Assembly (NCBI GenBank): GCA_018648805.1
Contig: JABGQM010000006.1
Span: forward strand, 1 to 64,000
Length of the DNA stretch: 64,000 nt
Source of the DNA: Verrucomicrobiota bacterium
Lineage (GTDB): Bacteria; Verrucomicrobiota; Kiritimatiellia; UBA8416; JABMPJ01
Reading direction: 5' to 3'
The notes below the pieces were generated by a model. It was not told the DNA's origin. It did no database searches and saw nothing but the letters and a program-made list of their open reading frames with translations. The position numbers and the translations under genes are program-made. Of the stretch, positions 29,552-51,848 are shown in pieces (the first letter of the stretch is position 1; the number at the start of each line of letters is the position of its first letter).

Positions 29552-31108
29552 ATGAAACGGTCTGGTTTGATTTGTGGTGTGGTGGCGGGGCTTTTGGTGG
29601 GGACGCTGTGCCAGGGCGTGGCGGCGCAGGCGGTGCGCGATCCGGAGGCGGTACGCCAGGCCTTTACGGCGGTGGCGGCGCGGCTTGACCAGGGCGGCGA
29701 CCTCATGGTGGTGGCCAACGTGGACGGACTGATCGAGCGCTCGATGGCGGACATGGTGGAGATCATGTCGACGGCGACGGTGGATGATGCGAAGGCCAAA
29801 GAGGCGATGGCGGCGGTCAACAAGCTGCACACCTTTCTCAAGAAGAACGGTTTCTACGCGATCAACGGTTTGGGGATGAGCAGCGTGCCGCGCGCGGACG
29901 GCCAGAATGTGGTCAAAATGTTCATCAGCCGGGATGCGCAAGCGGCGATGCTGCCGCTGTGGCGCGCCTGTGTGGGCGGGGCGCCGCGGGAGCTGCAGAG
30001 CCTTCGGTTTCTACCGGCCACTACCGAGCTGGCTCGGGCCGGGACGACCGACATCAAGCAGCTGTGGGCCATGATTCAGAAGGGCGTATCCGAGGTGGCG
30101 CCGGCCGAGGCGGCTCAGCAGTTTGCGCAGGGCATTGAAGGTGCCGCGATGATGATCGGGGTGCCGATTGACGACCTGATCGGGTCAATTGGGGTGGACA
30201 GTGTGATCGGTATTCAGTTTTCCTCGGATGCCAAGATTACGATCCCGGCCGGGGAGAAGCAGATGGCGATTCCTTCGCCGTCGCTGCTGTTGGCCATGCA
30301 GGTCAAGGATGACACGCTGATGACGCTGGTGAAGGGGCAGGTGGTGAAGACCGGCATGCCGCTGATGGAGTCGCAGGTGGAAGGTACAACGGTCTACGCG
30401 CTCAACCTGCCGGTGCCGGTGGTGCCGGTGCAGTTGGCGATGGCTCAGCACAAAGGCTATCTGTTGATCGGGACGACCGTGCAGACGGTGACCGAGGCGA
30501 TCAAGGCGTATACGGGCAAGGGCGGCTTGATCGCCACGGAGGCCTACAAGGTCGCTTTCGCGGGGCAGCCGGCCAAAAACAATGGTATTGCCTATGTCAG
30601 TGCGCGTTTCGGCGAGATCATACGCAGCATCCAGGAGTCGGCCATGGCGTTGGCCCCGTCTACGGGCGCGCAGGATAAGGCGTCACGTGATCTCGTGACG
30701 CGCCTGCTGGATCGCCAGCAGAACTATAGCTGTGCCATTACGATTATGAACTACAAGAGCGGCGTGCGGGCTTCGGGGACGACCTCGGCCAGCGGCCAGC
30801 AGCTCGTGGCGTCGATGGCTATTGCGCCGGTGGGTATGGTGGCGGCGATTGCGATTCCGTCCTTTGTGAAGGCGCGTGGGAAGGCGCAGGCGTCTGCTTG
30901 CATCAATAATCTGAGGATGCTGGATTCGGGCAAGGAGCAGGCGGCCATGGAACAGAACCTGCAGGATGGCGCAGCCGTGGATGAGGCGGCCGTGACGAAG
31001 TATCTGCCCACCGCGGCGATTCCAGTGTGTCCCAAGGGCGGCATCTATACGCTGGGACCGATTGGCACCAACCCGACCTGCAGTGATCCGGGGCATGTTC
31101 TGCCATGA
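29552..31108 (+). CDS. Exported protein with C-terminal pseudopilin-like domain
   Basis: A 518-residue protein starting at ATG 29552 behind AGGGGCGAGAG. Residues 1-25 are a signal peptide (GLICGVVAGLLVGTLCQGVAAQA). Residues ~30-420 look like a DUF3352-type exported domain with helices and strands (LDQGGDLMVVANVDGLIERSM, MIGVPIDDLIGSIGVDSVIGIQF, GYLLIGTTVQTVTEAIKAYTG). The last ~95 residues are pilin-like: GMVAAIAIPSFVKARGKAQASACINNLRMLDSGKEQAAMEQ, then AVTKYLPTAAIPVCPKGGIYTLGPIGTNPTCS. This copies the body of PVC type IV pseudopilins but lacks the prepilin cleavage site, being preceded instead by the exported domain. The function is not known. Confidence 0.75.
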   Translation: MKRSGLICGVVAGLLVGTLCQGVAAQAVRDPEAVRQAFTAVAARLDQGGDLMVVANVDGLIERSMADMVEIMSTATVDDAKAKEAMAAVNKLHTFLKKNGFYAINGLGMSSVPRADGQNVVKMFISRDAQAAMLPLWRACVGGAPRELQSLRFLPATTELARAGTTDIKQLWAMIQKGVSEVAPAEAAQQFAQGIEGAAMMIGVPIDDLIGSIGVDSVIGIQFSSDAKITIPAGEKQMAIPSPSLLLAMQVKDDTLMTLVKGQVVKTGMPLMESQVEGTTVYALNLPVPVVPVQLAMAQHKGYLLIGTTVQTVTEAIKAYTGKGGLIATEAYKVAFAGQPAKNNGIAYVSARFGEIIRSIQESAMALAPSTGAQDKASRDLVTRLLDRQQNYSCAITIMNYKSGVRASGTTSASGQQLVASMAIAPVGMVAAIAIPSFVKARGKAQASACINNLRMLDSGKEQAAMEQNLQDGAAVDEAAVTKYLPTAAIPVCPKGGIYTLGPIGTNPTCSDPGHVLP

Positions 31109-31965
31109 CGGCTGCGCCTGAGGTCCTGGTACGGCAGTCGTGCGATACGGGTGAGGGTCCGCTATGGCATCCGGATGCACTATGCCTCTACTGGCTGGAT
31201 ATTCCCAACGGGTTGATCTTTAGGTATGACCCGGTTTCGCAGGTTGTGACGACCTATAAGGCCGGAGCGCCCGTGGGCGGCATGACACTGCAGCAGGATG
31301 GGGCGCTGGCACTGTTCATGGCTGAGGGGGCGGTGCGGATCTGGCGCGATGGTGTGTTCATCCGGACGGTGCGGGAGGAGATCCCGGCCGAGCGCGGCAA
31401 TCGGTTCAATGACGTGATTGCCGATCCGGAGGGGCGTGTGTTTTGCGGCGTGATGTCGACGCCGGAGCGGGCCGGCCGACTTTACCGGCTGGACCCGGAC
31501 GGGACGCTCACGGTGGTCGTGGACGGCACCGGTACGGCCAATGGCATGGGGTTTGCACCGGGGCTGAAGCAGATGTATTTCTGTGACTCGCGGCAGCGGA
31601 CGCTGTCCGTGTTTGACTACGACCGTGCCTCCGGCGCCATCTCAAACCGGCGTATTCTGCTGAGCCCGCAAGGCGATGAGGGCAAGCCGGACGGGATGAC
31701 CGTGGACGCCGAGGGCTGTGTGTGGTCGGCACGCTGGGACGGGGCGCGACTGGTTCGGCTGGATGCCAACGGGGCGGAGCTGTTGCGCGTGGACTTCCCG
31801 GTGCGGAACGTATCCTGTCTGGCGTTCGGTGGGGCGGACCTGACCGACATTTTTGTCACGACGGCCCGTGCGGGCGATCCGGAAGCCAATGGTGAACTCT
31901 CGGGATCACTGTTTCACCTGAATCTGGGGATCAAGGGCCGTCCGGAGTTTCGTTCGGCGCTGTGA
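31105..31965 (+). CDS. SMP-30/gluconolactonase-family protein
   Basis: A 286-residue six-bladed propeller of the SGL family: CDTGEGPLWHPDALCLYWLDI (metal-binding Glu), GAPVGGMTLQQDGALALF, RFNDVIADPEGRVFCGVMST (Asn/Asp site), NGMGFAPGLKQMYFCDSRQRTLSVFDYD, and GKPDGMTVDAEGCVWSARWDGARLVRLDANG (Asp site). Members hydrolyse sugar lactones using a divalent metal. The ATG overlaps the stop of the preceding gene by four bases. Its substrate here is unknown; a sugar lactone from aldose oxidation is likely. Confidence 0.9.
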   Translation: MTAAPEVLVRQSCDTGEGPLWHPDALCLYWLDIPNGLIFRYDPVSQVVTTYKAGAPVGGMTLQQDGALALFMAEGAVRIWRDGVFIRTVREEIPAERGNRFNDVIADPEGRVFCGVMSTPERAGRLYRLDPDGTLTVVVDGTGTANGMGFAPGLKQMYFCDSRQRTLSVFDYDRASGAISNRRILLSPQGDEGKPDGMTVDAEGCVWSARWDGARLVRLDANGAELLRVDFPVRNVSCLAFGGADLTDIFVTTARAGDPEANGELSGSLFHLNLGIKGRPEFRSAL

Positions 31966-32460: not shown

Positions 32461-32574
32461 TGCTCCGGAGCGGTTTTACAGCTTGAGTGTTGGCGGGGGG
32501 GGATCTATCCTTGTCGACTTGTGGAAAAGCCCTGCCTGTGCGGGGCGTTGTTGTGTTGTAGAGAGGGGCTTGAG

Positions 32575-33495
32575 ATGGCGTTTGGTGAAGGCAAAATCTG
32601 GGTTGACGGTAAGCTGGTCGATTGGGCTGACGCTACGTGTCATGTGATGAGTCATGCGCTCCACTACGGATCGTCTATCTTTGAGGGGATCCGCTGCTAT
32701 GACACGGGGGCAGGGACGGTAATCTTCCGGCTGGGTGACCACATGCGTCGTCTGTATGAATCGGCCAAAATCTACCGCATGGATATACCTTTCGAGCAGG
32801 CCGCGTTGGAGCAGGCGGTCATTGACACGGTGCGCGAGAATGGGTTGAGTTCCTGCTATATCCGTCCGTTGGCGTTTCGCGGACTGGGTGAGATGGGGGT
32901 CAACCCTCAGAAATGCCCGGTCAACGTGGTAATTGCCGCGTGGTCATGGGGCAAGTACCTCGGCGAAGCGGCCATGGAAGATGGCGTATCGGTGCGTGTT
33001 TCCTCGTGGCGGCGCCCGGCGCCTGACACGTTCCCGACCCTGGCGAAGGCGGGGGGTAACTATCTGAACTCCCAGCTGATCAAGATGGAAGCCACGAATG
33101 ATGGGTTTGATGAGGGTATTGCGCTGGACTATCAGGGCTTCGTGTCTGAGGGGTCTGGCGAGAATATCTTTCTTGTGCGCAATGGGGCGATCTATACGCC
33201 GCCGACGAGTTCTTCAATCCTCCCGGGCATCACCCGTCACTGCGTGGTGACCCTGGCCCGTGAGATGGGCATCCCCATGCGTCAGCAGGTGATTCCACGT
33301 GAGGCGCTGTATGTGGCCGACGAGGTCTTTTTCTCGGGCACGGCGGCCGAAATTACGCCGGTGTCAAAAATCGACAATATCGTGATTGGTGAAGGTCGAC
33401 GCGGTCCCGTAACGGAGCGTATCCAGTCGGCTTTCTTTGACATTGTTGAGGGGCGTACGCCGGATACGCACGACTGGTTTACGCCGGTCGCGTAG
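32575..33495 (+). CDS. ilvE: Branched-chain amino acid aminotransferase
   Basis: A 306-residue fold-type IV PLP enzyme that transfers amino groups between glutamate and branched-chain 2-oxo acids. It has [37 protein letters not shown], the [14 protein letters not shown] segment with the PLP Lys, [25 protein letters not shown] and [18 protein letters not shown]. The ATG at 32575 follows GAGAGGGG and removes 18 unrelated residues of the longer frame. It leads a run with mcsA, mcsB and clpC (21-base gap to mcsA). Confidence 0.94.
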
Positions 33496-33516
33496 GGCCG
33501 TGCAGGGAGAGCAACC

Positions 33517-34011
33517 GTGAAGTGCGAAATCTGTGAGTGCCAGGAAGCATCCGTACATTTCAAGCAGGTCTGCAATGGACAGATCAAGGAGATGTATGTG
33601 TGTGAAGAGTGCGCGGCCGAGAACGGGTTCGATCTGCAGTCGCCGCTCTCCATGCCTGACTTTCTGTTTGGCGCCGGCCTGAAGCCAGAGAAGCAGGGCC
33701 AGTCGTCCGAGAGGACCTGCCTGGTGTGCGGGACGACCGGTAAGGACTTCAAGAAACGGTCTCTGCTGGGGTGCCCCTCCTGTTACGAGGCCTTTGCGGA
33801 GGAGCTTTCGCCCTATCTGCGCGCGATGCAGAAGGGGGGACGGCATGTGGGCAAGGCCCCGGCCGGGGAGGCCCTGACGGCCGAGATTGCCGCGTTGCAG
33901 CAGGCCCTTGAGCGAGCCGTAGCGGCACAGGATTTCGAGGAGGCGGCAACACTGCGGGACCGCATTCGGGATCTGCAGGCGCAGCAGGACGGTGTGGTTG
34001 AAGGGGCATGA
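33517..34011 (+). CDS. mcsA: McsA-like zinc protein, activator of arginine kinase
   Basis: A 164-residue protein with the McsA layout: four Cys pairs (MKCEIC at 3-6, YVCEEC at 29-32, TCLVCG at about 69-72, GCPSC at about 87-90) forming two zinc-binding units, then a C-terminal UVR coiled coil (AALQQALERAVAAQDFEEAATLRDRIRDLQ). In Firmicutes McsA activates McsB and links it to ClpC. The GTG start at 33517 is fixed by the first Cys pair. It overlaps mcsB by four bases. Confidence 0.9.
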   Translation: MKCEICECQEASVHFKQVCNGQIKEMYVCEECAAENGFDLQSPLSMPDFLFGAGLKPEKQGQSSERTCLVCGTTGKDFKKRSLLGCPSCYEAFAEELSPYLRAMQKGGRHVGKAPAGEALTAEIAALQQALERAVAAQDFEEAATLRDRIRDLQAQQDGVVEGA

Positions 34012-35075
34012 GTATGTTTGTGGATGAGTTAGTCAAGCAGCCGGGTTTGTGGTCAAGCGATGACCTGGAGGCGGGCATTGTGGTCAGCAGCCGTGTGCGT
34101 TTGGCACGCAACCTGAAAGGCGCGGCCTTTCCCGGGTGGGCTAAGGATGATGAGCGCCTGCGCCTCTGCCGTTCCGTTCGCAAGGCCTGTGACGGTCTGC
34201 CGGGGCTACGCCGCAGCACGTTTCTGGATATGGGCGAACTTGAATCGGTCGATAAGGAGGTCCTGATTGAGCGCCATCTTATCAGCCGCGAACTGGCCGC
34301 CATGGGTGCGGGCAGCGGCGTGGTGTTGCATCGCGAGGACAACGTGGCGATCATGGTGAACGAGGAAGACCATCTGCGCATGCAGGTGATCCGTCCCGGG
34401 ATGAGTCTGCGTGCGTTGTGGGAGGCCATGGACGCGCTTGATAGCGAGCTTTCGGGATCACTCGACTTTGCATTTTCTCCCCGCCTGGGTTACCTGACGG
34501 CCTGTCCCAGCAATGTGGGTACCGGGCTGCGTGTCAGTGTTATGCTGCACCTTACCGGGCTGCGGTTGCTGAATGAGATCGATCCGGTGGTTAAGGGGTT
34601 GGACAAGATCGGGTTGACCGTGCGCGGCGTGATGGGGGAGGGCAGTGATGCCGAGGGGAACATCTTCCAGGTGTCGAACCAGGCCACGCTGGGCGAGTCC
34701 GAGTCCGACATTGTTGACCTGCTGGGTGAAGTGGGGTCCGAGCTGGTGCAGCATGAGCGCAATGCTCGCGCGCGTCTTCTGGAGGACCGCTACGCGTTTG
34801 TGCAGGACTACGTGGGGCGCGCGCTTGGAATCCTGTCACACGCCCGCCTGCTCTCTTCCGGGGAGGTGACCGACCTGGTGGCGGCCTTACGCTTTGGTGT
34901 TGAGCTGGGGATGGTCCGCAAGGTGGCTCCGTCGGAGCTCAACGAAATAATGCTTTTGACACAGCCGGGGCACTTGCAGAAACTCTATGACCGCGTAATC
35001 AATCCCGATGAACGGGACGAAATGCGCGCACAACTGGTGAAGAAAAGAATCGCTTCGTGCGAATTGGTGGACTGA
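34008..35075 (+). CDS. mcsB: Protein-arginine kinase McsB
   Basis: A 355-residue member of the ATP:guanido phosphotransferase family, which phosphorylates arginine on proteins and so marks them for ClpCP degradation. Landmarks include IVVSSRVRLARNLKGAAFPGW, LIERHLISRELA, VLHREDNVAIMVNEEDHLRMQVI (the NEEDH loop with catalytic Glu), LDFAFSPRLGYLTACPSNVGTGLRVSVMLHL (catalytic Cys and the nucleotide-binding loop) and GVMGEGSDAEGNIFQVSNQ. The start overlaps mcsA; clpC begins two bases after the stop. Confidence 0.95.
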   Translation: MSMFVDELVKQPGLWSSDDLEAGIVVSSRVRLARNLKGAAFPGWAKDDERLRLCRSVRKACDGLPGLRRSTFLDMGELESVDKEVLIERHLISRELAAMGAGSGVVLHREDNVAIMVNEEDHLRMQVIRPGMSLRALWEAMDALDSELSGSLDFAFSPRLGYLTACPSNVGTGLRVSVMLHLTGLRLLNEIDPVVKGLDKIGLTVRGVMGEGSDAEGNIFQVSNQATLGESESDIVDLLGEVGSELVQHERNARARLLEDRYAFVQDYVGRALGILSHARLLSSGEVTDLVAALRFGVELGMVRKVAPSELNEIMLLTQPGHLQKLYDRVINPDERDEMRAQLVKKRIASCELVD

Positions 35076-45684: not shown

Positions 45685-47709
45685 CTAGCGGCGCTTGAGC
45701 AGTTTGGATCTTTCCTCGCTGCTGTCACGCTCTCTCTCGGCCTTGGCCGCTTCACTGATTTCATTGATCTCAGCCATGAACGCACGACGCTTGGCTTCGG
45801 CGGCGATGATATGACGGCGGGTCAGTTCGGTATTCTCCGGCAGGCCCGTCTCACGCAGGAGTGATTCCGGCATGGCCAGTCCGACCGATACAAAGATAAT
45901 GGTCTCTTCCTGGGACTTCTCTTTGTGCGTATGCGAGAAGAGGTACTTGCCCAGAAGGGGGATGTCGCCGAGGAGAGGGATCTTGGTTGTGACGTCACGG
46001 TCACTGGTTTCGGTGAGACCGCCGATGGCCACGGTCTTGCCGCTATCGAGCGAGAAAACCGTTGAGATGGTCTTACGCGCAATGATGGGATAGGTCTGAC
46101 CGTTGGGGGCGATCGCATCACTCAGGAAGCGCGTCAGCTCCGGTTCGATCTTGACCGTAATGTTGCTGGAGGTGTTGACGGTGGGGGTCACGGTGAGCTT
46201 GACGCCGAGATCAACCGGATCGCCCGGGTTATAGGTGACGACCGGGGCGATGCCCTGCTGCCCTGGCGTGACGCTGGAGATAAAGGGGCGCTCGGTCTGC
46301 CCGATGTGAATCGTGGCCGACTCTTCGTTGGCGACGATGATCTTCGGGTTGGACACCACGCTGATGCCGCTCATCTGTTTGAGGGCACTCAGGACCAGCT
46401 GGAAATCGGCCGCGCTTAGCACCGCGGTACGTGCATCCCCGATGGTCTTGGTGAAGGTCGAGGTCACATCCGAGGCGAGGTCGGAGCCCGAATCAATCGT
46501 ATCCGTAAGGGTACGCGTAGGCGTGATGCTCGACTGTGAAATGAAGTTACCTGACTCGGGCGGGGATTCCAGGAATTCGAGTGTTTCTTCCTGGTACTGA
46601 TCGCTGTAGATGTCGTACCGCTCGTTGACCAGATCGATCGCGCCACGATTGGAGCGTCGTGCGGCGGCATCGGCGCGCTGGTCTTCCCAGGTGCGGTTCT
46701 TGCTCAGATCAATCTTCATGCTTGAGGCTCCGATGCCGTAGCCGGAGAGGGCCTGCCAGTTGATGCCGAGATCCTTGATGGCTTGATCGTTCAGCTCCAT
46801 GAACTTGGCCTCGATAAAGACCTGGTCGCGTGGAATATCGATCTCCGTCACCAAGGTCTCGATTTCACCAAGGTTAGCCGGCGTGCTGCGCACCACCAGG
46901 GCATTCTTGGAGGGGAACTCGGAGGCCGTTCCGCCCGCGATCAACATGGACTTCACCACGGGTGACACGTTGGCCACGCTGGCGTACTTAAGAAAAAGGG
47001 TTTGGACCTTCATGGGCTCCGGGGTGCCGGCCGGGCGGGGGATGATGCGGTAGACCCCTGAGCCCGGTAGCTTTTCGTCCAGAGCCAGGCTGTGCATGTC
47101 GAGTATGGATTCCAACGCGGGTTTCCACTCCACATCGTTCAGGTTGACCGTCACACGGCCCTGCAGGTTGCTGGGGGTGGCGATGATGTTGGCCCCCGAG
47201 ATGCGTGTAAACATGCGGACTACATCCAGAATATCCACGTCGTCGAGGGTGATGCTGATCAGTTCGCTGCCGGCCTCGCGGTCGGGTGCAGAGAGATCCG
47301 CATCGGATTCATCTTCGAGCGTCAGGAAACCTGATGGCTCATCCGAGTCGTCGGTGGCGCGCGGGGCGGCCCTGTCCGGGGCGGCATCCACGTCGGCCGG
47401 GGGGGCGGCCATGGGGACAACAGGGGCAACAGGTGCCGCAGGCGCAACAGGGGCAGCGGGGGGCGGTGCCTCGCTCAGGGGCATCCCGTCGGGCGTGGTC
47501 ATAGCGTCGACCGGGGGGTCGGCTATGGGTGCCGCCGGAGCAACGGCTGCAGCCGGTGCAACGGGAGGCGGTTCCTCGCTCAGAGCCTTCCCGTCGGGCG
47601 TGGTCATGGCGTCGGCCGGGGGCATGTCCTGGGCGGTCAGCCATAGTGAGCCGACGACAAGTAGCGCGGCGGCGGCGGGCAGTAGTATATTTCTCAATGT
47701 GTGATTCAT
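45685..47709 (-). CDS. pilQ: Secretin, PilQ/GspD type
   Basis: A 674-residue outer-membrane secretin. There is a signal peptide (~1-26), then a Pro/Ala-rich region (~27-115) with two copies of DAMTTPDGxxLSExPPPxAP, an N0/STN-like domain (ISITLDDVDILDVVRMFTRISGANIIATPSNLQGRVTV), an N1-like domain (VSPVVKSMLIAGGTASEFPSKNALVVRSTPANLGEIETLV), and the secretin core ending with KTISTVFSLDSGKTVAIGGLTET and DIPLLGKYLFSH. It is the pore of a type IV pilus or type II system. It is preceded by the Ig-like lipoprotein gene and pilMNOP. Confidence 0.92.
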   Translation of the reverse strand: MNHTLRNILLPAAAALLVVGSLWLTAQDMPPADAMTTPDGKALSEEPPPVAPAAAVAPAAPIADPPVDAMTTPDGMPLSEAPPPAAPVAPAAPVAPVVPMAAPPADVDAAPDRAAPRATDDSDEPSGFLTLEDESDADLSAPDREAGSELISITLDDVDILDVVRMFTRISGANIIATPSNLQGRVTVNLNDVEWKPALESILDMHSLALDEKLPGSGVYRIIPRPAGTPEPMKVQTLFLKYASVANVSPVVKSMLIAGGTASEFPSKNALVVRSTPANLGEIETLVTEIDIPRDQVFIEAKFMELNDQAIKDLGINWQALSGYGIGASSMKIDLSKNRTWEDQRADAAARRSNRGAIDLVNERYDIYSDQYQEETLEFLESPPESGNFISQSSITPTRTLTDTIDSGSDLASDVTSTFTKTIGDARTAVLSAADFQLVLSALKQMSGISVVSNPKIIVANEESATIHIGQTERPFISSVTPGQQGIAPVVTYNPGDPVDLGVKLTVTPTVNTSSNITVKIEPELTRFLSDAIAPNGQTYPIIARKTISTVFSLDSGKTVAIGGLTETSDRDVTTKIPLLGDIPLLGKYLFSHTHKEKSQEETIIFVSVGLAMPESLLRETGLPENTELTRRHIIAAEAKRRAFMAEINEISEAAKAERERDSSEERSKLLKRR

Positions 47710-47769
47710 CAGCCTCTCCCATTCATTGCGGTCGGCATTGCTGTTGTGCCGTCAGTGCTCAAGATCATT

Positions 47770-48945
47770 CTATTCTTTCGTGATAATTACGTAGGCCGTC
47801 TGTGGCGTTCCATAGGTCGACCCAATACGATCGATGAGTTTCACCACGATTGAGCCGCTCCCGCTTGTGCGAGAAAAGACTACAGATGCGCCCTGCGCTG
47901 CCGGTTGACCGGCGAAGTTGCCATCTGCCGTGGCCGTGGGTACAGACCATTGGTAGGTCGGGGCGCCCCCAACGGCCGAAAGCACGATAACTGTCTGATT
48001 GGAGGACATGGTGGCAGGCGACGGCACAATGGTCAGCGTGGCTATTGTCGACTGCGTAATGGTCGCTTGGGTTGTCTCACCCGCTGAGTCCTCGAGCACA
48101 ATGATCTGGTCCCCCTCTCCCTGGCGCCTGTAGGTCATGAGGTCGGCGGTGGCACCCGAAACGATTTCACCGCGGGTGGGGTAGACGACGGACCACGAAT
48201 AGGGCGACAGACCGCCGGTGCCGATAAAGATGGCCTCTTCGCCGTCGGTGCTGAGAGTGGTGGACGACGGCACGATGCTCAGCGCGTCGAGATCAAGGAC
48301 ATGCGATACCGTGGCCGAGGCGATGTCACCGGCGGCATCGCTGATCGTGACAATGTTGGTGCCGACCAGGGTGGGGTTCATGACATAGTACGTGCCGCCC
48401 TGGCTTACAACGCCGAGCTCAGGAAACAGCTCGGTCCACGAGCTGTAGGGGGGCACACCACCCGATACGACGAAATTGGCGGCCGGGCCGGCGGGCGGTC
48501 TCGCGAGCGTGATGTCGGTGGGAATAATGGTCAGCGGGTCGGCACCGACCCTGATGGTGGCCGTGGCGGAACGGCCTACCGCATCGATGGCGACGATCGT
48601 GTTGTCCGCGACGACAATGCTCTCGTAGAGGGCGTAGTCTGTGCGCAGGCCCACGGTCGAGATCGTTCCTCGTGCCGCGCTGGCCACGGACCAGGCCACC
48701 GGGGTGACCGCGCCTTTGGCGCGGAACGAAATATGCTGCCCGATCACGGCCACATTCTCGATGATGGGGCTGACGAGAAGGGGGATCTCGCCATCGATCC
48801 GTGTTTCATTCTCAAATGCGTTTGTGTCGAGCAGGGCACCGGCATTCGACAGTCCCGGCTCATCTTCACAGCCGGTGAAGATGGTGAATGTGGCTATGGC
48901 AGCGACCAGCAGTGATGCTGACACCCAGAATTGTAGCTTACGCAT
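47770..48945 (-). CDS. Lipoprotein with four Ig-like (BIG-type) repeats
   Basis: A 391-residue lipoprotein: signal peptide and lipobox at FTIFTGC (Cys about residue 26), then four repeats of ~80 residues (each begins LTIIPTDITL / LSIVPSSTTL / LTIVPSPATM and contains PYSWSVVYPTRG-like loops). The Asp after Cys (CEDEPG) might favour inner-membrane retention by the E. coli rule, but this rule is not general. The ATG at 48945 has GGAGGT upstream. The gene lies between pilP and pilQ, so it probably assists the secretin, as a PilW-like pilotin would, or decorates the pilus. No known homologue is recognised. Confidence 0.75.
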   Translation of the reverse strand: MRKLQFWVSASLLVAAIATFTIFTGCEDEPGLSNAGALLDTNAFENETRIDGEIPLLVSPIIENVAVIGQHISFRAKGAVTPVAWSVASAARGTISTVGLRTDYALYESIVVADNTIVAIDAVGRSATATIRVGADPLTIIPTDITLARPPAGPAANFVVSGGVPPYSSWTELFPELGVVSQGGTYYVMNPTLVGTNIVTISDAAGDIASATVSHVLDLDALSIVPSSTTLSTDGEEAIFIGTGGLSPYSWSVVYPTRGEIVSGATADLMTYRRQGEGDQIIVLEDSAGETTQATITQSTIATLTIVPSPATMSSNQTVIVLSAVGGAPTYQWSVPTATADGNFAGQPAAQGASVVFSRTSGSGSIVVKLIDRIGSTYGTPQTAYVIITKE

Positions 48946-48991
48946 AATCTCATACCTCCGTACCAGTGCCCGGCGTTCCGGATCTCCTGGC

Positions 48992-49456
48992 CTATTGTGT
49001 GCGGCCTCCGACAAGGGGTGGCGTGTAGGGGCGTGCTTCCAGGCGCGTGAACCTCACGCCCTTGGCACTCACTTCATCAATGATCCATGTGTAGAGCAGT
49101 CCATCGCGCTGCATCGTGACGGTCTGGCCGGTTTCGATGAGCCCGACGCCTTCGATGATGGCCATGTAGCGCCCCCGGCTTGCCCGGGTGATGCCTTTGA
49201 GGAGCAGCGGCGGCCATTTTGTCTTGGCCTTGGTTTCGCGCGCTTCCTCTATCTTGGCGACCTCCGCTTCCGAAATATCAGGCTGCGGCGGTGCGGGGAC
49301 GTATCCCACGGGCCAGAACGGATCGCGCATGACCTCCAGTATGGTTTCGGCCTCCAGGGTCGTGTTGGTGGGGATGCTGTTCGTGGCGGGCTCCTCCGCG
49401 GCCATCATCGGCTGGCTCAGCCATAGTCCCAGTAGCGCATACATGAGCAGTCTCAT
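48992..49456 (-). CDS. pilP: PilP-like inner-membrane/periplasmic protein
   Basis: A 154-residue protein with a signal peptide (MRLLMYALLGLWLSQPMMAAE) and an RDPFWPVGY motif (~46-54) typical of PilP and GspC-type linkers. It is followed by a small beta-barrel-like HR domain (LKGITRASRGRYMAIIEGVGLIETGQTVTM, VSAKGVRFTRLEAR). PilP links the PilMNO platform to the PilQ secretin. The start codon overlaps the pilO stop by four bases (ATGA). Confidence 0.75.
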   Translation of the reverse strand: MRLLMYALLGLWLSQPMMAAEEPATNSIPTNTTLEAETILEVMRDPFWPVGYVPAPPQPDISEAEVAKIEEARETKAKTKWPPLLLKGITRASRGRYMAIIEGVGLIETGQTVTMQRDGLLYTWIIDEVSAKGVRFTRLEARPYTPPLVGGRTQ

Positions 49457-50166
49457 ACGGCGGCTCCCTGTTCTGGCTCCGGAATCGCTTCCGGCGCGGG
49501 TGCGTCTTCCTCTTCCTCCACCTGCTTGGAAATCTGCTCTTTGAGCTGTTCTTCGATTTCGGCTGGAAATTCCGGGTCGGCCCATACCGGCCACTGCACT
49601 TCAATGCTGATACTGTGTCTCTCGATGTCCACGCCGGTACGCGGCCTGATCATGACGCTGGTAATGCATACGTAGGGATTCTGGTTCTCGATCTCGCGCA
49701 TCATGGCGAAAGCGTCATGATAGGGGGCCACCAGGTTGACGCGGACCGTATAGGCCTTCAGAAGTCGATCTTTCTTGGCATTGGCATTCCGTGGGATATC
49801 CGAGATGGCGACTTCGCGCACGGGGTCAATGGCGATGTTCAGCGCGCTGGCGTGCGCTTCGATGATGCCGGTGGCTTCCAGTAGATAGTTGCCCAGCACG
49901 GGGTGCAGGATGTACTGGTCGGAGGCGCGCTTGATGCTGTCGAGCGTCTCCATGCGGTGTGTGAAACTGCGCGCCGCTTTCTTGATCTCCTTGCGGGCGC
50001 GTTCCACCCCCCTCTGGCACTCTTCCATGCGTACCATTCGGTTGGCCCGTGAGGTCCGCAAGGGGTTGATAATGCCCTGCACGATGCCGAGCACGACCAG
50101 GGCGGCACCCAGGCCGATCATGACAAAGATCTTAACGCGCTGCTGTTTGTCGTCGGGTAGTTTCAT
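49453..50166 (-). CDS. pilO: PilO-like pilus assembly protein
   Basis: A 237-residue bitopic membrane protein: membrane helix ~13-31 (VMIGLGAALVVLGIVQGII), coiled coil (~40-75), then a ferredoxin-like periplasmic domain (YTVRVNLVAPYHDAFAMMREIENQNPYVCITSVMI) and a Glu/Pro-rich tail. It fits PilO in size, topology and position, between pilN and pilP with four-base overlaps on each side. Sequence identity with characterised PilO is likely low. Confidence 0.75.
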   Translation of the reverse strand: MKLPDDKQQRVKIFVMIGLGAALVVLGIVQGIINPLRTSRANRMVRMEECQRGVERARKEIKKAARSFTHRMETLDSIKRASDQYILHPVLGNYLLEATGIIEAHASALNIAIDPVREVAISDIPRNANAKKDRLLKAYTVRVNLVAPYHDAFAMMREIENQNPYVCITSVMIRPRTGVDIERHSISIEVQWPVWADPEFPAEIEEQLKEQISKQVEEEEDAPAPEAIPEPEQGAAV

Positions 50167-50771
50167 TCGAACAGACTGAGTGTGTACTCACAGTTGAGCT
50201 GGAATATCCGGTTGTTCTTGTCATCGGGGTCTGCGCCGTAGCGGGGGATTTCTGCGCTGGCAATCAGATCTTTGAAGTCCGTGCTTTCGATGAAGTGTTT
50301 CTGGAGTCCTTCGACGGCCGTCTCCGCCGCCTTCCCGACGGCTTTGCCTGCCAGCGAAAGCGTGAAGCTGCGCGCCGCGATGCCCTTATCATTCTGTTTC
50401 AGTGTCTGGCTGATTCGCATGGAGTCGAGCTGGATGTTGGGGCTGATCGATTCTTGTATGGAAAGGAACTGCGGGGCCCAGTCGACGCTCGAGTGCCTCC
50501 AGGTTTCGATCTCGGACAGGATATCGTCATTGATTCCTCCCGCGTTGAGGACCTTGAGGGCCTGCTCCTTACGTGGCTCTGTATCCAACCATTCGCGCTC
50601 GATGTTCTTTACCTTGTTGGCGAGCGTCAGGGCATTCATCACGATAAACGCGATCAATCCCGCGGCAATGACCGGGCCCACAATGGAGGCCACGCGCGTA
50701 ATCGAGCGCAGACTCACCACGTTGGCGCTACGCTGCTCACTGGCAAATATCAGGTCTGCACGAAGGTTCAT
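50163..50771 (-). CDS. pilN: PilN-like pilus assembly protein
   Basis: A 202-residue protein: short cytoplasmic N-terminus (MNLRADLIFASEQRSANVV) that should dock on PilM, membrane helix ~32-52 (VGPVIAAGLIAFIVMNALTLA), coiled coil, and a periplasmic ferredoxin-like domain (RSFTLSLAGKAVG, ENNRIFQLNCEYTLSLFE-like end). Assignment rests on position and topology in the pilMNOPQ order. Confidence 0.72.
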   Translation of the reverse strand: MNLRADLIFASEQRSANVVSLRSITRVASIVGPVIAAGLIAFIVMNALTLANKVKNIEREWLDTEPRKEQALKVLNAGGINDDILSEIETWRHSSVDWAPQFLSIQESISPNIQLDSMRISQTLKQNDKGIAARSFTLSLAGKAVGKAAETAVEGLQKHFIESTDFKDLIASAEIPRYGADPDDKNNRIFQLNCEYTLSLFE

Positions 50772-51799
50772 GATTCCTCAAATGTAGCCATACAGGCTCC
50801 CACGGCTGCCGAGAAACGCGGCTCCTGCCCGGCACACTCTGCGGGTACGGCCTCGGGGGCCATGGTCAGGCCGCTGAAGGGGTTCCACGACTCTACGTCG
50901 ACGCCCATGGCGCCGTGCACCGCGTTCTGTGCATCGCGCGAGACCGCCAGGCCGCCCGCCAGGAAGATGGCGCTGACCTTGCAGTTTTCACGCCGTTCGA
51001 CGAAATCACGCGATACGACGAGTTGACGGACCAGTGGCTGCATGACCTCTTCGGCCGCGGCCGAGATGTCGAACGATCCATCCGATATGATCCCGAGTGC
51101 GGTCTGGCGGTCGACCCCGAGGGTGGATTGGACTTTCTCCAGCAGGGCGTTCGTGCCGCGGTCCAGCTTGCGGATGAGGACGGGTGTGCCGCCACTGAAA
51201 AAGGCGAAAAGGCAGGATGTCTCGCCGAAGTCGATCAACCCCAGCGTTTCGGCCTCCCGGGCAGCAACGGGTCCGTTCATGAAGGCGGTCATGGTTGCCA
51301 GTCCGGCCACCTCAAGCGAAAAAGGGGCGGGTGTTCCGGTGGTGGGCAGCATGTGAATAGCGGCCTCGGCCAGCGTGTCGGGGTAGGCGACGGCCACAAC
51401 GCGCGTTTCGCTACGGGCGCCGCCATCGGTCAGCAGGTTATAGCTGATGCGGAAATCATCCGGATTCTCGAGTCCAAGGTTCTCGATGACCCGTTCATCA
51501 AGATCGGCTTCACCCTTACCGGGGAGGGTCAGCAATCGAATGGTTGCGGGACTGGTTTCGACGGTCAGGGAGGCGTAACGGGCCTTGATGGCGGAGGGAA
51601 GATGGAGGAGTGTCGGGGCGGCTGTGTCGTCGTCGCGGTCGGAGGGGGGGAGTTCCAGGATGTCGATCGCCGCAACTGTGAGCGTATCGCCATTCTTACG
51701 CATGCGAACGGCATGCACCGACGTGCTGCCGATATCGAGGCCGACCACGTCCGTTGGCTTGCGTTTCAGGCTCCCAATTATCTCTGCAGGTGATTTCAT
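50768..51799 (-). CDS. pilM: PilM-like actin-fold pilus assembly protein
   Basis: A 343-residue actin-fold protein, cytoplasmic: the phosphate loop VVGLDIGSTSVHAVRM, then KGEADLDERVIENLGLENPDDFRISYNLL, the second loop LGLIDFGETSCLFAFFSGGTPVLIRKLDRGTNALLE and the adenosine motif IFLAGGLAVSRDAQNAVH. PilM binds the N-terminus of PilN. The ATG at 51799 is preferred to an upstream GTG-like start. A good promoter lies just upstream; this is the first gene of the pil operon. Confidence 0.85.
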   Translation of the reverse strand: MKSPAEIIGSLKRKPTDVVGLDIGSTSVHAVRMRKNGDTLTVAAIDILELPPSDRDDDTAAPTLLHLPSAIKARYASLTVETSPATIRLLTLPGKGEADLDERVIENLGLENPDDFRISYNLLTDGGARSETRVVAVAYPDTLAEAAIHMLPTTGTPAPFSLEVAGLATMTAFMNGPVAAREAETLGLIDFGETSCLFAFFSGGTPVLIRKLDRGTNALLEKVQSTLGVDRQTALGIISDGSFDISAAAEEVMQPLVRQLVVSRDFVERRENCKVSAIFLAGGLAVSRDAQNAVHGAMGVDVESWNPFSGLTMAPEAVPAECAGQEPRFSAAVGACMATFEES

Positions 51800-51819
51800 A
51801 GCTCGTATATAGTGACGAC

Positions 51820-51848
51820 ATAGTATGAGCAAGTTCTGTGCTAGACAA
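51820..51848 (-). promoter_or_regulatory. Promoter of the pil operon (leftward)
   Basis: On the minus strand, TTGTCT (51843-51848) and TACTAT (51820-51825) are separated by 17 bases, 20 bases before the pilM ATG. A standard sigma-70 layout. Confidence 0.65.

Follow-up and report, generated by a model that had tools for sequence, protein, structure and literature searches.

The window analysed here is a 64,000-nucleotide stretch of DNA from a Verrucomicrobiota genome (part of contig C95 of a 138-contig, 4.85 Mb assembly), and it carries a gene, P0001, whose product places part of a pilin behind an exported domain (Table 1). The reading frame is intact, with AAGGGG 5' of its ATG. By eye, the N-terminus, MKRSGLICGVVAGLLVGTLCQGVAAQA, looks like a type I signal peptide, and nearly all orthologues begin with similar signal-peptide-like sequences. 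Within the tail lie AAIAIPSFVKAR (aa 431–442), CINNLR (aa 450–455) and YLP..VCPKGGIYTLGPIGTNPTCS, the motifs that a first-pass annotation had quoted from this locus. F1, E5 and a prepilin-peptidase site are all missing. The layout described in that annotation, a signal peptide and some 390 residues followed by a pilin-like tail that has no prepilin leader, is thus present in full in the 518-residue frame, and the domain architecture of the family and its conservation are established.

Table 1. P0001 and associated features in the window (window positions; aa, residues of P0001)
Feature	Position	Strand	Details
Whole gene P0001	29552..31108	+	518 aa + TGA; open frame, full-length homologues
Predicted Sec type I signal peptide, aa 1–27	29552..29632	+	Cleavage after A25 or A27, by eye
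N-domain, divergent DUF3352, aa ~28–412	29633..30787	+	Pfam PF11832, AF2
Hydrophobic helix with central Pro, aa ~416–442	30797..30877	+	Family-specific start, then second half of pilin alpha-1 (MVAAIAIPSFVKAR)
Pilin alpha-1C and C-terminal pilin domain, aa 443–518	30878..31105	+	Contains C450, C493, C510 and H515
SMP-30/gluconolactonase gene	31105..31965	+	ATG overlaps P0001 stop (ATGA)
Type IV pilus assembly genes	45685..51832	-	Secretin 45685–47709, PilM 50768–51832; between them ORFs without Pfam match

The overlapping SMP-30 gene also adjoins the P0001 homologue in two other genomes of the genus; outside the genus it was not found beside P0001 homologues, and synteny is not conserved there. 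Downstream, at 32521–35075, lie genes that by eye resemble a branched-chain aminotransferase, then McsA and then McsB/arginine kinase. PilM and the secretin stand 15–20 kb from P0001, not close enough to count as linkage.

The sole Pfam domain recognised in P0001 is DUF3352 (PF11832), over part of the N-domain at aa 241–383 (E 7.9e-7). The score of 28.5 bits against a curated cut-off of 26.8 places P0001 within the family, on a partial match to positions 121–263 of the 536-position profile. DUF3352 itself is also present in Synechococcus elongatus and Deinobacterium, as a control search indicated. Among 388 genomes of the phylum, a dedicated N-domain model used as an N-domain-only query finds the domain in 118 (~30%), compared with 24 for PF11832. 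An AF2 model of the N-domain alone, computed with 49 relatives, has a pLDDT of 93.5 and a pTM of 0.89. The full-length AlphaFold model (pLDDT 82.7) renders aa 415–467 as a single long helix, with low confidence at 424–438. PDB fold searches with the full model and with the N-domain returned nothing at E<=0.001, nor did PDB sequences yield a match when searched with an N-domain profile; DcrB/EagT6/PsbP-like folds appeared at E about 0.1, too weak to be used as evidence, and were set aside. A limited literature search found no paper with the term DUF3352.

The tail is pilin sequence; the first-pass annotation had named a tail unrelated to pilins in profile searches as a refuting outcome. A model built from true prepilins only matches it at E 1e-35, with the alignment starting at mature residue 9, and a prepilin of the same genome shares 54% identity with it (E 6e-26). 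The best PDB sequence matches of P0001 are Geobacter and Myxococcus pilins, over aa 422–466 (E about 0.006–0.06). The tail has four matches in the genome: P0001 itself, the prepilin (L002), and two further loci, one encoding a 237-aa exported protein with a PilA C-domain tail, no leader and no helix (L003:1018-1728, on C24), the other a 138-aa protein with a leaderless PilA C-domain (L004:1384-1800, on C69). The prepilin (MKKNLGFTLVEIMIVVAIIGLLAAIAIPSFVKARNTSQQNACINNLRQID...) adjoins pilB, pilC and a PilR-like sigma-54 regulator on their downstream side. Since this sole leader-bearing match sits directly behind pilB-pilC-pilR, the P0001 tail is PilA-type; the earlier label of pseudopilin gives way to a PilA-type pilin as nearest relative, and origin from a T2SS pseudopilin was rejected on the same grounds.

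The processed N-terminus is taken to define a pilin, and a class III leader has G/A at -1, F/M at +1 and E at +5 beside that terminus. P0001 has homology to the pilin C-domain; it has neither a class III leader nor a complete alpha-1N. A candidate internal prepilin site at G415 (SG/QQLVA) was rejected because +5 is not E and the other tail flavours lack the G; G415 is conserved in near relatives. In all three flavours the alignment to pilins starts at a median of mature residue ~10–13. Homology thus begins near mature residue 9–13, and the missing residues are those for processing and for the filament core. The first-pass suggestion that the domain is integrated differently is supported to this extent: the protein has no prepilin site, and the usual way into a filament is closed to it. 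Its suggestion of a minor tip component is disfavoured: P0001 has no leader and no E5, and the first ~8–12 mature residues are missing.

The same domain order, which the first-pass annotation had proposed to look for in PVC genomes, recurs across the phylum. Models from true prepilins only recognise a pilin tail on 88 of 94 distinct N-domain proteins (all loci), and a prepilin leader precedes the tail in none of the 94. With the N-domain as sole query, 47 of 51 fetched frames continue into a pilin tail; of the four that do not, one (L233) ends with its fetched stretch. Three other genomes of the genus hold full-length copies 67–69% identical to P0001, and a search of 115 relatives recovered full-length copies in many families. 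Those named in a scan of genome contigs with a near-relative alignment come from Kiritimatiellae, Lentisphaerae, Pontiella, Limisphaerales and a Sumerlaeota bin; most are MAGs labelled Kiritimatiellae/Lentisphaerae or otherwise Verrucomicrobia. One homologue, L053, comes from a record that carries no MAG label. The tree computed from 131 tails spans 72 columns, too few to tell one fusion origin from several.

Individual loci vary on this layout. Within the genus, L032 (G002:C54:16927-17372) resembles a gene remnant, the start of the N-domain and the end of the tail lying in different frames. A tandem pair of pilin C-domains is found on one DUF3352-like protein at L021, L235 and L239, and a Sumerlaeota bin has two adjacent DUF3352-like genes, of which one has a recognised pilin tail and the other has none (L069:5004-7773).

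Three flavours of tail occur on the same N-domain: C..C..C..H in 57 proteins, DUF1559/H-X9-DG-like in 19 and VxGEDY-like in 12. The flavour follows lineage, and prepilins of the same flavour accompany it in nearly all cases. For VxGEDY, 10 of 10 genomes tested had same-flavour prepilins; for H-X9-DG-like, 9 of 10 had matches of that flavour, with prepilin leaders seen in seven. Pairs could be compared in two flavours, and there identity between tail and pilin was 55.7% within a genome against 49.3% in shuffled pairs, and 60.2% against 51.6% (shuffle p 0.0002 in both groups), a resemblance confounded by relatedness, since pilins are alike among related genomes. Single genomes offer clearer cases than this pooled comparison. 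For instance, the fused tail of G063 is 63% identical to its own pilin and at most 49% to any other pilin and 50% to any other fused tail, and in G235 one stretch, FNKVREDSREKAITNNLRQIASAGQQYIL, is identical in the fused tail and the prepilin. Such matching could arise through conversion by the resident pilin gene, co-evolution or repeated renewal of the fusion, all of which would point towards the pilus.

Within the C..C..C..H flavour, 139 distinct tails combine the three Cys with a following His, partly defined as any His in the short end after the last Cys; one further tail (L069) has C,C,C,C. No partial Cys sets were seen in this flavour, and Cys-free tails lack all three. Four candidate ligands are thus conserved together, a nearly all-or-none pattern that suggests a candidate metal site rather than one disulfide. 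Fused tails from which all three Cys are missing include those of L023, L025, L027, L028 and L072; in two of the genomes concerned, G073 and G052, sampled prepilins keep the first Cys.

The tail is not confined to DUF3352-like proteins. Among the fusions drawn from loci L115-L134, L095 and L102, leaderless pilin C-domains end, begin or lie inside various exported or membrane proteins, often in the absence of a helix. Carriers include M48 peptidases (L118, L120), a metallophosphoesterase (L125), a GYF_2 protein (L123), DUF4190 proteins (L121, L124, L126, L132, L102) and zinc-ribbon proteins; in L122 the tail lies in the middle of a DUF2059+LysM protein, and in L128 and L129 it directly follows a signal peptide. 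These fusions support an extracytoplasmic location of the tail, and show that the module does not require the helix to be present.

As for pilus machinery, the same genome has pilB-pilC-pilR-pilA, one clear prepilin peptidase and 23 N_methyl proteins above the family cut-off. It also has 14 loci above the PF00437 cut-off (type II/IV secretion ATPases), 10 of them with E <1e-99. Across the phylum, 8 genomes that are near-complete (99%) have no prepilin peptidase, and none of the 8, all from two families, contains the N-domain; three less complete MAGs in which no prepilin peptidase was detected do have the N-domain.

We tentatively read P0001 as a pilin mimic of the periplasm that docks on the machine of the type IV pilus and does not polymerise, a reading drawn from sequence comparison to which we give a probability of about 40%. 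A decoy had been among the options named in the first-pass annotation. Sec would export the protein, and the N-domain would then fold in the periplasm. The prepilin peptidase would be unable to cut or methylate the pilin part, nor could this part be packed as a normal subunit, and the tail would offer a surface resembling a pilin to the pilus machine or to membrane pilins awaiting assembly. It may thereby recruit the N-domain to the base of the pilus, with a role in assembly, quality control or regulation. The grounds are the conserved, always leaderless layout (88/94 and 47/51 tailed), an alignment that starts past the processed end of the pilin in every flavour, and tails that match the flavour of their own genome's prepilins and resemble them more than shuffled pairs do. 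To these are added the pilus genes, prepilin peptidase and 23 prepilins of the host genome, and the missing N-domain in the 99%-complete genomes that have no peptidase. Against it count the lack of a conserved link between the P0001 gene and pilus genes, the confounding, the two-family limit and the three MAGs given above, and the presence of the tail on M48 peptidase, metallophosphoesterase and DUF4190 proteins, which have no evident pilus role.

An artefact in which a sequencing or assembly error joined two genes, raised at the outset as a refuting case, is refuted: dozens of independent genomes carry the same fusion in open frames, nothing was found in favour of an error, and its chance is negligible. 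More has to be said about the internal helix, which the first-pass annotation suggested might insert the domain in the membrane. The segment is indeed hydrophobic, its best 19-residue Kyte-Doolittle mean reaching 2.11, and the KAR that follows suits the positive-inside rule. Tail-less paralogues (L022, L033) keep a helix stub, so the stub goes with the N-domain family, and the junction with pilin sequence falls inside it. A true transmembrane helix could make P0001 a membrane-anchored periplasmic domain, with a tail that is cytoplasmic or merely part of the anchor. Yet the hydrophobicity is clearly weaker than in true pilin helices (leaderless internal segments average 1.94, true prepilins 2.95), a central Pro is conserved among relatives and model confidence is low here. 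Moreover, a helix spanning the membrane after a cleaved signal peptide would leave the Cys-rich tail facing the cytoplasm, whereas in pilins and in the helix-less signal-peptide fusions that tail is extracytoplasmic. Membrane insertion appears borderline, and we consider an anchor of this kind improbable.

Two further explanations are serious rivals of the mimic reading. The pilin C-domain may have become a general small extracytoplasmic module, probably metal-stabilised and reused on exported proteins that are no longer related to the pilus. Its strongest argument is the use of the leaderless tail on other proteins, from DUF4190, M48 and GYF_2 to proteins that offer little besides a signal peptide, often with no helix, and the nearly all-or-none Cys/His set is in keeping with it. 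In the DUF3352-like family, however, the tail changes with the lineage's own pilins, a correspondence needless for a module independent of the pilus, and we regard this explanation as somewhat unlikely. The variety of exported domains that bear the tail would suit a tag for export or display, by which the protein rides the pilus or a T2SS-like piston with the N-domain as surface cargo. Cargo bound to a pilus has a precedent in TcpF, which is hooked on the minor pilin TcpB of type IVb pili (PMC9565799). TcpF, however, binds by a short N-terminal peptide and not by a copy of a pilin (PMC9565799), and the pilin part of P0001 is truncated in the very segment that packs into the filament core, leaving a display tag rather unlikely.

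The mimic reading could extend beyond DUF3352-like proteins. In this phylum, a leaderless C-domain of the genome's own pilin, kept matched by gene conversion or co-evolution, might act as a pilin tag that recruits many exported proteins, DUF3352-like ones first, to the type IV pilus machine unpolymerised; we consider this wider proposal unlikely. The recurrence of the P0001-type layout suggests that the pilus system has an accessory part that has gone unstudied. In ~30% of the sampled genomes of the phylum the other part of a pilin has been kept, C-terminally, behind an exported domain. Should such tails bind the pilus machine, type IV pili would acquire functions by a new kind of attachment, and this poorly cultured phylum would have accessory factors that have not been studied. 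Pilin searches that rely on the C-domain will also count non-pilins.

The first-pass annotation knew of no characterised protein of this layout, and a limited literature search likewise found none, nor any leaderless C-terminal pilin domains. Closest is the type IVa-like major pilin PilA of the same genome (L002; L191:14450-14803), which has in common with P0001 the second part of alpha-1 and the C-domain with its CINNLR, CPxGG and C..H motifs. PilA has a GFTLVE leader and its alpha-1 is complete, with no domain ahead of it, whereas a signal peptide and a 385-aa domain stand before the pilin part of P0001. Elsewhere in the phylum, other lineages have on this N-domain a tail of the pilin type seen in DUF1559/H-X9-DG-like prepilin-type proteins; those proteins themselves start with a prepilin leader and lack an exported domain upstream. 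DUF3352 resembles P0001 over aa 241–383, above the curated cut-off, although the N-domain covers only part of the profile. TcpF with TcpB (PMC9565799) offers the likeness of an exported non-pilin protein that works with a pilus; unlike P0001, TcpF is not itself part pilin.
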